A stretch of DNA of 64,000 nt, taken from positions 186,001-250,000 of the forward strand of contig NZ_WRXM01000001.1 in the NCBI RefSeq assembly GCF_010119205.1, written 5' to 3'. The notes beneath the pieces were generated by a model that was not told where the DNA came from, searched no databases, and saw nothing but the letters and a program-made list of their open reading frames with translations. The position numbers were made by a program, and so were the translations under genes. This DNA is from Haloarcula limicola (GTDB taxonomy: Archaea; Halobacteriota; Halobacteria; Halobacteriales; Haloarculaceae). This document shows, piece after piece, positions 36,031 through 56,289 of this stretch. The first letter of the stretch is position 1. Every line of letters starts with the position of its first letter.

Positions 36031-36154
36031 GGTTCGAGCGTAGCGAGAACCTCCTTTCTCACGAGCGGGGAGGAACGACCCGCGAGCAGTAGCGAGGGGC
36101 GCGAACAGAGAGGGACCGACGGTCCCTCAGGCAGCCGGGCGGCATCGCCGCCCG
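36031..36154. terminator. Series of strong hairpins after purF
   Basis: Three hairpins follow the purF stop. At 36031-36051 the arms are ggttc/gaacc; at 36110-36128 gagggacc/ggtccctc with a 3-base loop; at 36136-36154 cgggcggc/gccgcccg with a 3-base loop. There is also a possible long pairing of ctcctttc (36051-36058) with gaaaggag (about 36160-36167). They might end or protect the purF transcript. No T-run follows, so a bacterial-type terminator is not claimed. The remaining bases to 36299 hold no gene. Confidence 0.5.
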
Positions 36155-36299
36155 ACGATGAAAGGAGCGGCCCTCGAAACTGCGAACGGTAAGTGAACCG
36201 CGGAGCAGCAGCCAGACAGATCGCTATTCACGGCTCACTACGTTCGCCGTTCGTATCAATCGAGAGCCGCGCTCCGCTCAGTCGCGCGGCCCTCGCCGT

Positions 36300-49405: not shown

Positions 49406-50862
49406 CTCCCGTTCGTTCCCTCGCTGCTCGAACTATCGACGCCCATCGCCTCGAACAGTTTTCGCTTGACCGCCTCTTCCGTGAGGTCGAGTAGCGTATC
49501 GCGATTGTCGTCGTTCGTCTCCAGCCCCGTGAAGATACCGAGCGGAATCTCGACGCTCGCGTCCGTCGAGTGACCCGCCGTCTCGCCCATCTCGCCGAAG
49601 GCGTCGGCGAGGACTTTCCCGATGTTCATGCGGATGTCCTTCGACCGAGCCGCCAAGTAGATGGTGTCGTCGGCGATGGCGAAGACGGCCGTAGTCGTGA
49701 TGCCTTCGAGGTTGAGCAGATGTTGTGCGGCCTGCGAGAGCGCGTCGCGGTCACGGATGAACCCGGCGTTCGAGACGAGGTGACTGCCCTGCACCTCGCG
49801 GTTCCGGATGGCCTCGGCGAGGACGTCGAGCGTCTCCGGGCTCATCGACGGCGACTCGACCTGCTCGAGCGTGTCGTGGTCCGCGAACGGATAGAGGTAC
49901 GCCGCGGCGGTCAGGTCCGCCGGCGTCGTGTCGCGCTTGAAGTCCAGCGTCTCGGCGCGAATGCCGTACAGGAGGGCGGTGGCGACGGTCTGATCCAGCG
50001 TGAGGTCGAGTTCCTGAATGTACTTCGTCAGGATGGTCGAGGTGGCCGAGACGTTCGGCCGGATGTCCGAGAACGTGGCGTCGTGTTCGTCTTCGTGCTC
50101 GTAGTGGTCGATGATGACGTCGACGCTGTCGACGTCCGGTTCGCCACCCTTCGCCACGTCGACCAGCGCGAACGTGTCGTAGTCGGCCAAGTCGACGGAC
50201 TCCCGAGAGGCGAGTTCGATACCGAGCAAGTTGACGAACGCCCGGTTCTCCTGATGGCCGATCTCCCCCTCGTAGATGATGTCCGCCTCGACCTCGCGGC
50301 TCTCCGCGATGGCTCGAAGCGCCGCGGCCGACGCGATGGAGTCCGGGTCGGGCGAGCGGTGGATGAGGATCGCCATCCGGTCTTCGGTGGCGTCGATGAC
50401 GTCGCTCAGCTGCGACGCCTTGAACTCCAACTCGCCGGTTTCGAGCGCACGGAGCGCCGAGTCGGCGATGACCGTCGAGGGGTTGATGACCACGTCGGCA
50501 CCCAACTCGGTGAGTTCGTCGCCCGAGACCGGGTCGTCGGCGCGGGCGACGATGAACTGCTCGCCGTCGGCGCTCCGGATGTTCTCGACGGCCTCGGCGT
50601 TGGCGTCGACGTCCGAGGACATGATGAGGACGACGTCGCGGTCGCGCAGCGTCTCGACGACGTCGGGCTCGCGGATGTCGGCCTGCTGGGCGTTGAGGTC
50701 CTGGTCGCGCAGCGCCTCTACCCGGCCGTCGTCGGCGTCGAGGATGAGGACGTCCTTCCCCTCGTCGACGAGTTCCTCCGCCACGGCGTGGCCGACGCTC
50801 CCACACCCCAGGATGGCGTACGTAGACATCGAGGCCATCGTAATGCCGCTGGCTGCACTCAT
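49402..50862 (-). CDS. DHH-family phosphoesterase fused to an N-terminal RCK/TrkA-N domain
   Basis: From ATG 50862 the protein has 486 residues; MSTYAILGCGSVGHAVAEEL at 50829 is the core start. The first 130 residues are a TrkA-N Rossmann domain with intact GxGxxG and an acidic strand end (LILDADDG). The DHH part follows: IHRSPDPDSIASAAALRAI, VDLADYDTFALVDVAKGG, VIIDHYEHEDEH (DHx motif) and a DHHA1 domain with FGEMGETAGHSTDASVEIPL. It probably cleaves c-di-AMP, nanoRNA or similar under nucleotide control. The TATA box 29 bases before 50862 favours that leaderless start. Confidence 0.9.
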   Translation of the reverse strand: MSAASGITMASMSTYAILGCGSVGHAVAEELVDEGKDVLILDADDGRVEALRDQDLNAQQADIREPDVVETLRDRDVVLIMSSDVDANAEAVENIRSADGEQFIVARADDPVSGDELTELGADVVINPSTVIADSALRALETGELEFKASQLSDVIDATEDRMAILIHRSPDPDSIASAAALRAIAESREVEADIIYEGEIGHQENRAFVNLLGIELASRESVDLADYDTFALVDVAKGGEPDVDSVDVIIDHYEHEDEHDATFSDIRPNVSATSTILTKYIQELDLTLDQTVATALLYGIRAETLDFKRDTTPADLTAAAYLYPFADHDTLEQVESPSMSPETLDVLAEAIRNREVQGSHLVSNAGFIRDRDALSQAAQHLLNLEGITTTAVFAIADDTIYLAARSKDIRMNIGKVLADAFGEMGETAGHSTDASVEIPLGIFTGLETNDDNRDTLLDLTEEAVKRKLFEAMGVDSSSSEGTNGS

Positions 50863-50888
50863 TGGCTCTTGATGTGGCCGGGACACAC

Positions 50889-50894
50889 TTATAT
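50889..50894 (-). promoter_or_regulatory. TATA box of the DHH-RCK gene
   Basis: On the minus strand gatataagtg (rc of 50886-50895) lies centred about 29 bases before the ATG at 50862, supporting a leaderless start there rather than at 50829. Confidence 0.55.
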
Positions 50895-51017
50895 CACACC
50901 GTCTCTGCCACCGGTGGCCGCAGACCCGGAACGCCGCTCGCAGACCGATCGAGCCGCCGGTGTCCCCCGATTCGAAAGGAAACGTATTTACAAAGCCCCC
51001 CGCAACCTGTGTGTGCA

Positions 51018-51091
51018 GGGCCGGTAGCTCAGTCTGGCAGAGCGACGGCCTCTTAAGCCGTCGGTCGAGGGTTCAAATCCCTTCCGGCCCG
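51018..51091 (+). tRNA. tRNA-Lys (CTT)
   Basis: The 74-base cloverleaf has acceptor stem gggccgg/ccggccc (51018-51024 with 51084-51090), D-arm gctc...gagc, and anticodon stem acggc/gccgt. The loop ctcttaa holds anticodon CTT at 51052-51054. The T-arm is gaggg-ttcaaat-ccctt and the discriminator is G. CCA is not encoded and there is no intron. A TATA-like gtatttaca (50984-50992) lies about 30 bases upstream, and a short T-run follows. Copies of its T-arm/acceptor end recur downstream (see the repeat entry). Confidence 0.96.
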
Positions 51092-51480
51092 CTTTTGCTC
51101 CGAACAGTTCGTGAGGAGCGACGCGGCCACGGAGGGTTTGAAACAAGTCAGTCGCGCACAGCGAACGGCGAAGCCGTGAGTGAGCACGTCTGATAGTGGT
51201 TCAAATCCCTTCCGGCCCGTATTCTTGCGCCGCGAACAAATGCGTGAGCGGTGCGAATTCGACGGTGAAGGGATTTAAATCAGGGAACAGCTCTGCTGTG
51301 ACCGTGGTTCAAATCCCTTCCGGCCCGCTTCTGCTCCGAACAGTTCGTGAGGAGCGACGCGGCTACGGAGGTTTGAACGAGAGTACGAAGGACGTGCAGG
51401 CAATTCAAATCCCGAAAGACGCCGTCGGCGTCTTTCGACCCTCGCGAACGCTACGCGTTTGCTCAGCCCCTTCCGGCCCG
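51070..51480. repeat. Alternating direct and inverted copies of the tRNA-Lys 3' end
   Basis: The 22 bases 51070-51091 (tRNA T-loop to discriminator) recur without a mismatch at 51198-51219 and 51306-51327. A fourth copy is split by an insertion (51402-51413 plus 51467-51480). Between them lie inverted partial copies: 51131-51144, 51267-51281 (13 of 15 bases) and 51367-51378. Hairpins of the type gctccgaac/gttc...ggagc sit in the spacers. The segment 51070-51136 recurs nearly unchanged at 51306-51371. No protein is supported in this 500-base stretch. It may be a set of integration scars or a family of miniature elements that carry a tRNA end. Confidence 0.85.
51414..51436. repeat. Perfect hairpin inserted in the fourth tRNA-Lys-end copy
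   Basis: Arms gaaagacgcc and ggcgtctttc are 10 bases each around gtc. It begins the roughly 53-base segment (51414-51466) that splits the fourth copy. The rest of the insert (gcgaacgctacgcgtttgc) is a second weaker palindrome. Confidence 0.7.
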
Positions 51481-51608
51481 CTCCCCTACGTCGATTCTAC
51501 GGTTGGCCTGTTTATCCAGTGACAGCAATCGCAAGCAGGGAACTCATGCGAACTCGGGGGCAAAATCGCCGTATGGGAAGCTATCCACGATCCGCGCGAA
51601 GTGCCCAG

Positions 51609-51713
51609 ATGAAGTGCATATCCTGCAACGCGCCGGTAGTCCAGCGAGTGGACGACCGATACGTCTGCGTCGACTGCGGCGAATCGCCGATCTCGACAGA
51701 CGAGGTCGCGTAA
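51609..51713 (+). CDS. Small zinc-ribbon protein
   Basis: The 34-residue protein from ATG 51609 reads MKCISCNAPVVQRVDDRYVC and continues VDCGESPISTDEVA. Knuckles CISC and CVDC are 13 residues apart between the inner cysteines, enough for a rubredoxin-type zinc ribbon. In-frame ATGs at 51573 and 51546 would add basic residues; a TATA-like tttatcc (51511-51517) would place a transcript start near 51540, just before 51546, so the 55-residue form is also possible. It follows directly after the tRNA-Lys repeat array. The function is unknown. Confidence 0.6.
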   Translation: MKCISCNAPVVQRVDDRYVCVDCGESPISTDEVA

Positions 51714-51871
51714 CTGTCGCCATCGAGTAGCGATACGGAGTCGAGCGTAAACAGAGCCGGTGCTTTCCGCGAACAGAGGTCCACGTTGTCGCTCGCTAAC
51801 GGGCGTTCCAGACCGAGTGCGACGGTTCCGCCACCCGAAGAGATTTATCCCTCTCCCGAGAGTCCCGAAAT

Positions 51872-55992: not shown

Positions 55993-56173
55993 GGGGTCGT
56001 GGCCTAGTCCGGGAAGGCGGCTGACTCCAGAGGCCACGCGCCTGGGACGAAACTCCAAGGGCTGATATACTGAGCGGCCGGCTGATCACCGGTTCGCGAC
56101 GATGACCCTCTGGAGTTCCGAGGCGCAGGACGGAGATATCAGCCGATCGGGGGTTCAAATCCCTCCGACCCCA
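55993..56173 (+). tRNA. tRNA-Trp (CCA) with a 107-base intron
   Basis: Exon 1 (55993-56030) gives acceptor ggggtcg, the D-arm and the anticodon stem gctga with loop ctccag; the anticodon CCA is 56027-56029. Exon 2 (56138-56173) gives the rest of the stem (tcagc), the T-arm ggggg-ttcaaat-ccctc, acceptor cgacccc and discriminator A. The mature tRNA is 74 bases. The intron sits after position 37, the standard archaeal site. A TATA-like tttag is centred 28 bases upstream. CCA is not encoded. The intron is also a guide RNA (next entry). Confidence 0.96.
56031..56137 (+). ncRNA. Box C/D guide RNA inside the tRNA-Trp intron (targets C34 and U39)
   Basis: Two guides are visible. Guide 1, ggctgatat, ends one base before a ctga (D' box) and pairs with atatcagcc at the intron/exon 2 junction; the fifth base upstream of the D' box falls on U39. 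Guide 2, cctctggagt, ends one base before ccga (D box) and pairs with actccagagg at the anticodon; the fifth base falls on C34. A box C'-like gatga precedes guide 2; the first box C is less clear (gacgaa). Halophilic tRNA-Trp introns are known to guide these two 2'-O-methylations, and the derived targets agree exactly. Confidence 0.9.
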
Positions 56174-56289
56174 CTATCTCTGCGCGCTCACACTTCGTGA
56201 GCGCGCTGTATCGTTGTCGAGGAGGGATTTGAACCACGCGAGACGAACGAAGTGAGTCTCGCAGTCGGGTGAATAATCCCTCCGACCCA
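56152..56289. repeat. Direct and inverted copies of the tRNA-Trp 3' end
   Basis: Bases 56221-56235 (ggagggatttgaacc) are a perfect 15-base inverted copy of the tRNA-Trp T-arm at 56152-56166. A direct copy of the T-arm/acceptor end lies at 56275-56288 (14 of 14 bases, aatccctccgaccc). A strong hairpin gcgcgctcac/gtgagcgcgc (56182-56206) lies between tRNA and inverted copy. The order tRNA end, hairpin, inverted copy, direct copy is the same as after tRNA-Lys. No gene is supported from 56174 to 56377. Confidence 0.8.

Follow-up and report, generated by a model that had tools for sequence, protein, structure and literature searches.

Mobile elements of archaea and bacteria classically dock at the 3' ends of tRNA genes, and, to our knowledge, the trailers of haloarchaeal tRNA genes have been little studied. 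In the tyrT operon of E. coli, the rtT repeats form units of 178 bp that each carry approximately 19 nt of the 3' end of tRNA-Tyr. The attC sites of integrons are imperfect palindromes that conserve structure over sequence and are strand-asymmetric, and the freshest cassette of an integron lies by a fixed anchor. Haloarchaeal elements of the SNJ2 type integrate at the tRNA 3' end with a short att site (PMC8371274). In addition, the SMRs of Haloquadratum are non-coding mobile repeats of ~110 bp, with inverted repeats at their termini and insertions in IS605-type elements; they show no tie to tRNAs, and deletions between short direct repeats are described alongside them (PMC3119063).

In this study, a repeat array behind tRNA-Lys(CTT) was analysed in a window of 64,000 nucleotides (the whole stretch of DNA under analysis) from the 3.9-Mb genome of Haloarcula limicola. 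The 8 kb surrounding the array share 89-92% nucleotide identity with Haloarcula amylovorans.

Results

The tRNA-Lys(CTT) gene, called by ARAGORN and by Infernal with RF00005, occupies positions 51018-51091 (+). Its last 22 nt (D1, 51070-51091) are repeated exactly at 51198-51219 (D2, +) and 51306-51327 (D3, +), and a fourth copy (D4, +) is split into 51402-51413 and 51466-51480. Inverted partial copies of the same end are found at 51131-51142 (I1, -), 51267-51281 (I2, -) and 51367-51378 (I3, -), and the spacers are occupied by hairpins with GAAC..GTGAG loops. The preliminary description of these exact, split and inverted copies and hairpin spacers was accurate and is confirmed from the sequence; its step of 55-70 bases, on the other hand, is corrected here to a true repeat of ~111 bp (median unit length ~111-113 bp; quartiles 109-124).

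Unit 1 (51092-51197 with D2, which closes it; 128 bp) begins with a hairpin A of the form GCTCC-GAAC..GTGA-GGAGC, recognised from the sequence and from stem covariation and containing tandem GA, which together with its linker spans 51092-51130 (+). It is followed by I1, which repeats the T-loop and T-stem 3' strand of this tRNA in inverted orientation and was own-specific by permutation, and by a hairpin B of the AGTCGCGCAC..GTGAGTGAGCACGTCT family (51143-51197, +), which is shorter in the ~90% identical relative Haloarcula amylovorans (L082). The covariance model R1 matched this unit at 51092-51219 (E 1.9e-14). Unit 2 (51220-51305, closed by D3; 108 bp) contains a hairpin A of the GCGCCGCGAAC..GTGAGCGGTGC type with its linker (51220-51266, +), the inverted T-arm copy I2 (GAAGGGATTTAAATC) and a hairpin B of the AGGGAACAGCTCTGCTGTGACCGT family (51282-51305, +), and was matched by the model at 51224-51327. 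In unit 3, matched at 51328-51423, hairpin A (51328-51366, +) is a 96% repeat of the 51092-51138 region and is followed by the inverted T-arm copy I3 and hairpin B (51379-51401, +). The left half of D4 holds the T-arm part and is present too in L082, and the right half, identified from the sequence and from L082, holds the T-stem, acceptor and discriminator and ends the array. The two halves are separated by a third module, module C (51414-51465, -), which consists of two hairpins with tandem GA motifs in antisense and which also interrupts some D copies at other tRNAs.

The same window contains a second unit at 56174-56289, behind an intron-bearing tRNA-Trp. This tRNA-Trp(CCA) gene (55993-56173, +), which has a long intron, was missed by the ARAGORN window scan and was read from the sequence; the corresponding tRNA type of relatives was called as tRNA-Trp(cca)i. 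The unit comprises hairpin A (56174-56220, +), an I (GGAGGGATTTGAACC; 56221-56235, -) that is a 15/15 reverse complement of the tRNA's own T-arm, hairpin B (GCGAGACGAACGAAGTGAGTCTCGC; 56236-56267, +) and a D2 that reads GGTGAAT followed by AATCCCTCCGACCC (56268-56289, +). The covariance model matched it at 56178-56289 (E 9.4e-7).

The general order of a unit is hairpin A, the inverted T-arm I, hairpin B and then D. Hairpin A often takes the form TTTTGnnnC-GAAC..GTGA-GnnnCAAA and has a linker after it. I reads as the T-loop and T-stem 3' strand of the same tRNA in reverse complement and stops short of the acceptor. Hence, of the inverted tRNA-end copies reported earlier, the T-loop and T-stem part stands, but an own-specific anti-acceptor was not found. 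An origin by fold-back (zig-zag), with an anti-acceptor between A and I, was rejected after that region gave no own-specific signal, and the idea that I tracks the left or right D copy was likewise rejected, because I follows the sequence of the tRNA instead. Hairpin B falls into a few families, one of which is AGTCGCAGCG-..GAGCGAAGCGAG..-CGACCGTCT. D consists of the T-stem 3' strand, the acceptor 3' strand and the discriminator of the same tRNA; it reads GGTTC (or variants such as GGTGA and GCTCA), after which come AATCC, the acceptor 3' strand and the discriminator, all cognate, and the copies vary to the left of AATCC while retaining everything from there on. In effect, I, B and D together make up a T-arm whose loop has been swapped for a long hairpin.

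When RNAalifold was applied to a MAFFT alignment of the units, no structure was returned owing to gaps, and a hand-set structure was used. In 41 aligned units, 83% of the cells were paired in this structure versus 26-47% when it was slid, a control that is partly favoured by the structure having been set by eye on the same units; the structure collapsed when slid by one column. Moreover, 65 double-change cells were counted in the stems of the 41 units versus 26 after shuffling, a control that the by-eye structure does not affect in this manner but that ignores the relatedness of the units.

These compensatory base changes on one strand are among the observations that favour a putative structured trailer RNA. 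Such a read-through transcript would fold into hairpin A and the extended T-arm (I-B-D), after which would come a second acceptor 3' strand and a stretch rich in T. Its putative role would be to help form the tRNA 3' end, to terminate transcription as a fail-safe or to pair with the tRNA as a small RNA, and unit turnover would be ordinary homologous recombination. Consistent with it, most D copies are trailed by a T-rich stretch, and tandem-GA hairpins are biased to the tRNA-sense strand (130 versus 5 antisense, with the tRNAs divided 118/117 between strands) whatever the genomic strand. The stems lie on that strand too, and the transcribed array of tRNA-end mimics proposed in the preliminary description may likewise fit this orientation. 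In addition, G.U exceeded A.C in the stems (20 versus 6, one-sided p 0.005, with a symmetric filter and more units), an excess that fits single-stranded DNA no better than RNA; both this count and the 130 versus 5 are inflated, the units being related and the counts not independent. The evidence from the G.U excess is graded as moderate because no asymmetry was seen in a test on an earlier gappy alignment. When I was set against its own tRNA, G.U cells in core positions numbered 118 and A.C cells 44, a ratio that points the same way and depends on the base composition of D. Against a trailer RNA, the unit supplies no acceptor 5' strand to make a substrate for RNase Z, and the variation described below also counts against it. 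Overall, we regard the trailer RNA as the strongest competing explanation, possible but somewhat doubtful. Hairpins with the same tandem-GA loops were also observed in the window at 36031-36051 (+) and 36230-36250 (-), close to where a gene ends and away from any tRNA.

The link between units and tRNA genes was strict. An own-end copy, defined as the last 20 nt with at most 4 mismatches within 800 nt, was present downstream of 21 of the 44 tRNAs of the genome and upstream of none (0/44). Across 43 tRNAs of the genome, direct copies matched the own tRNA at 16.4 of 22 positions versus 13.3 for the ends of other tRNAs (0/2000 permutations). The inverted copies, which the preliminary description had allowed might prove no better than chance, were likewise own-specific across the 43 tRNAs (0/2000 permutations) and so lie above it. 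In the upstream flanks, the 22-nt end gave no own-tRNA signal; two probes were used for the inverted copy, and a weak rise (51/2000) was seen with only one of them. At all loci examined, which were partly selected for units, a cognate copy was found downstream in 153 of 280 and upstream in 0 of 189, and the number of non-cognate ends was 0. Among the D copies, 136 were cognate and at most 3 non-cognate, and two of these were a neighbouring real tRNA-Met and a copy of that tRNA-Met. The covariance model found 30 units in the genome, of which 29 lie directly behind tRNAs and one behind a displaced tRNA tail. A MITE, which needs terminal inverted repeats and dispersed, target-independent copies, was rejected on this distribution.

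The conserved alternation, recurrence of which at other tRNAs had been put forward as a mark of a real element, was recovered in the search of haloarchaeal genomes and tRNA downstream flanks at ~30 places in this genome and in most haloarchaea. The locus originally presented as a single tRNA-Lys array is therefore real, but the feature is genome-wide and order-wide, as its second unit in the window already indicates. Within the order, the covariance model detected units in 232 of 243 genomes, from 73 of 77 genera; across the phylum, 17 of 19 haloarchaeal genomes had units versus 0 of 101 others. A direct check of genomes with no match or one match yielded five without units (0 of 35 tRNAs checked), namely G094, G044 and G172 (GC 47-52%) and the GC-rich G098 and G211. 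The units are mostly dispensable, because some haloarchaeal genomes have none. Furthermore, the presence of a unit at the same tRNA differs among congeners, and this variation, together with whole genomes that lack units, indicates no essential role and argues against the trailer RNA.

Comparison of relatives revealed rapid turnover. At Leu(tag), genome G005 equals G011 plus one extra 112-bp unit adjoining the tRNA, beyond which 356 of 368 positions are identical. At Lys(ttt), the same downstream flank lies behind different units in G005, G011 and G015, and at Val(tac), B was swapped exactly between I and D in near-identical neighbours with A and the flanks unchanged. At tRNA-Lys(CTT) of Haloarcula amylovorans (L082), D1-A1-I1-B1 is joined directly to the split D4, and the whole D2-to-B3 block is missing, with the junction inside the T-arm, between T-arm copies. 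Breakpoints were located inside the T-arm at GGTTCAA/ATCC and GATTTGAA. The clean presence or absence of units can be equally explained by loss through homologous recombination between the 22-nt D copies, with no dedicated enzyme. Near-perfect tandem units were observed in G150 (C1:2656852-2657291, four copies of one unit at 111-bp steps) and in L027 (129-bp steps), showing recent unit duplication.

The modules differ in their mobility. At a similarity of at least 0.8 across tRNAs, 0 of 7071 pairs of A modules and 21 pairs of B modules were found; A modules stay with their tRNA and B modules are in some cases shared between tRNAs, although part of this sharing may reflect shared structural constraint. 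The fraction of exact copies was 0.63, 0.41 and 0.30 for the first, second and third copy from the tRNA, and hence decay increases away from the tRNA and the first copy is freshest; alternatively, the fall in exactness with distance could be due to gene conversion from the tRNA. A freshest copy nearest the tRNA, and a D that varies to the left of AATCC with the remainder kept, would also be expected of a Cas1/casposase-like integrase that inserts A-I-B, duplicates ~16 bp of the tRNA end and adds new copies by a leader-like tRNA. Such an integrase leaves the cognate I unexplained, and Cas1 (PF01867) is absent from this genome (G000) and from G005, G004 and the unit-rich G129 and G105, all of which have units, but present in the unit-free G094 and G044. 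We consider this origin extremely unlikely.

Four units have no adjacent tRNA; in front of each lies a tRNA tail of 13-14 nt (from Thr, Phe, Arg and Val, respectively). In the tRNA-Thr case, a tyrosine recombinase gene lies beside the displaced tail (ORF 774-1700, +, of L190, G000 C4:71500-73200) and the tRNA ~7.8 kb away, and an element of ~7.8 kb is integrated in tRNA-Thr(CGT). In congeners, units at L214, L252 and L270 are displaced from tRNA-Phe, tRNA-Arg and tRNA-Val(CAC), apparently by integrated elements. All four elements lie inside the first D copy with the whole unit pushed downstream; therefore, the units are older than the elements and are not their scars. No A, I or B features were found in the tRNA-Thr element, of which both ends were read. 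The nested excision products once suggested for the tRNA-Lys array are not supported by these two observations.

The tails left at the same place by the four elements equal in length the short att of SNJ2 (PMC8371274), and D copies retain at least that stretch, as would be expected if the units were scars or miniature attachment sites of SNJ2-like tyrosine-integrase elements that integrate at tRNA ends. This origin is very unlikely and at odds with the cases that were read, given that every one of the four elements sits between the tRNA and a complete, older unit, that unit ends did not equal the att arms of the tRNA-Thr element, and that scars would not yield a fixed A-I-B architecture with a cognate I at dozens of tRNAs. 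It is very unlikely, too, that the copies are decoy attachment sites under selection that draw integrating elements off the tRNA gene: the D copies include the att-core stretch and integrases do use tRNA ends here, but all four elements used D1, the tRNA itself, and no downstream copy.

Plasmids and phages, searched with the Lys array only, yielded no unit and one weak spacer match, and viral contigs contained no unit that looked haloarchaeal; their matches to GGATTTGAAYC..GGTTCAAATCC were rejected as bacterial-looking and weakly scoring. Among bacterial-looking viral contigs, L316-L321 carry a long hairpin from a tRNA T-arm (CATGGATTTGAACC..GGTTCAAATCCATG); its flanks are reversed in some contigs relative to others, which suggests that the site can invert.

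Discussion

Among the meanings first offered for the array, miniature elements that carry a tRNA end fit best, as the conserved alternation recurs and whole units are gained or lost cleanly. We propose, with about an even chance of being right, that the units are non-autonomous, tRNA-tethered cassettes whose gain, loss and exchange come about by recombination at sites in the T-arm. Each cassette (A-I-B-D) would be bordered by two copies of the 3' end of one tRNA, and recombination at the T-arm, where the T-loop sequence is common to nearly all tRNAs, would insert, delete or swap cassettes. A cassette joined at the T-loop would supply or replace the acceptor strand of the tRNA and only cognate cassettes would survive, which could account for the strict cognacy. 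Ordinary short-homology recombination could perform much of this turnover.

The hairpins may be kept as the folded strand would be the substrate of the recombination machinery, by analogy with integron attC sites. No recombinase linked to the units was found. A more tentative version, to which we lend limited credence, is that tRNA genes may act as anchors at which an unrecognised recombinase recombines hairpin cassettes as folded single strands at the T-arm, forming miniature-integron-like cognate arrays at tRNA loci that may number dozens in one genome.

An earlier description of the units was not found in the open-access literature, and subscription journals could hold one. As far as the open-access literature shows, the sequences point to an undescribed, fast-changing repeat family that is tied strictly to tRNA genes. 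This order-wide family is apparently unannotated even though such genomes have been sequenced for decades, and it suggests that there is a new type of recombination cassette or, alternatively, a new tRNA-linked class of RNA. In practice, the far border of a genomic island should not be placed at a second tRNA end behind a haloarchaeal tRNA on that evidence alone.

The units share with SNJ2-type elements the use of the tRNA 3' end and a common core of ~13-14 nt. Those elements, however, carry an integrase and other genes, interrupt pre-existing units and, in the case that was read, have ends without A, I or B. With the SMRs, the units have in common that they are non-coding haloarchaeal repeats of ~110 bp with deletions between short direct repeats, whereas the 47%-GC member of the order that was sampled has no tRNA units. 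Like attC sites, they are imperfect palindromes of similar length with sense-strand asymmetry, a folded site, a conserved structure and a variable terminal part (B varies most), and the freshest unit adjoins the anchor. Unlike integrons, they are anchored at a tRNA gene and contain neither an integrase gene nor an ORF in the cassette, and their boxes, GTTCRAA in D (for example GTTCAAA) and TTTGAAC or TTCGAAC in I, do not match the attC cores GTTRRRY and RYYYAAC.

The rtT repeats resemble the units in that the 3' end of a tRNA is repeated in tandem, regularly spaced, just downstream of its own gene. A cmscan of 50800-51800 against Rfam to E=5 returned the tRNA and chance matches only, with no rtT. 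Whereas rtT is known from one locus in enterics, almost all of the sampled haloarchaea have these units, which occupy dozens of tRNAs and differ further in their length of ~111 bp, two covarying hairpins, cognate inverted T-arm and exchange of modules.
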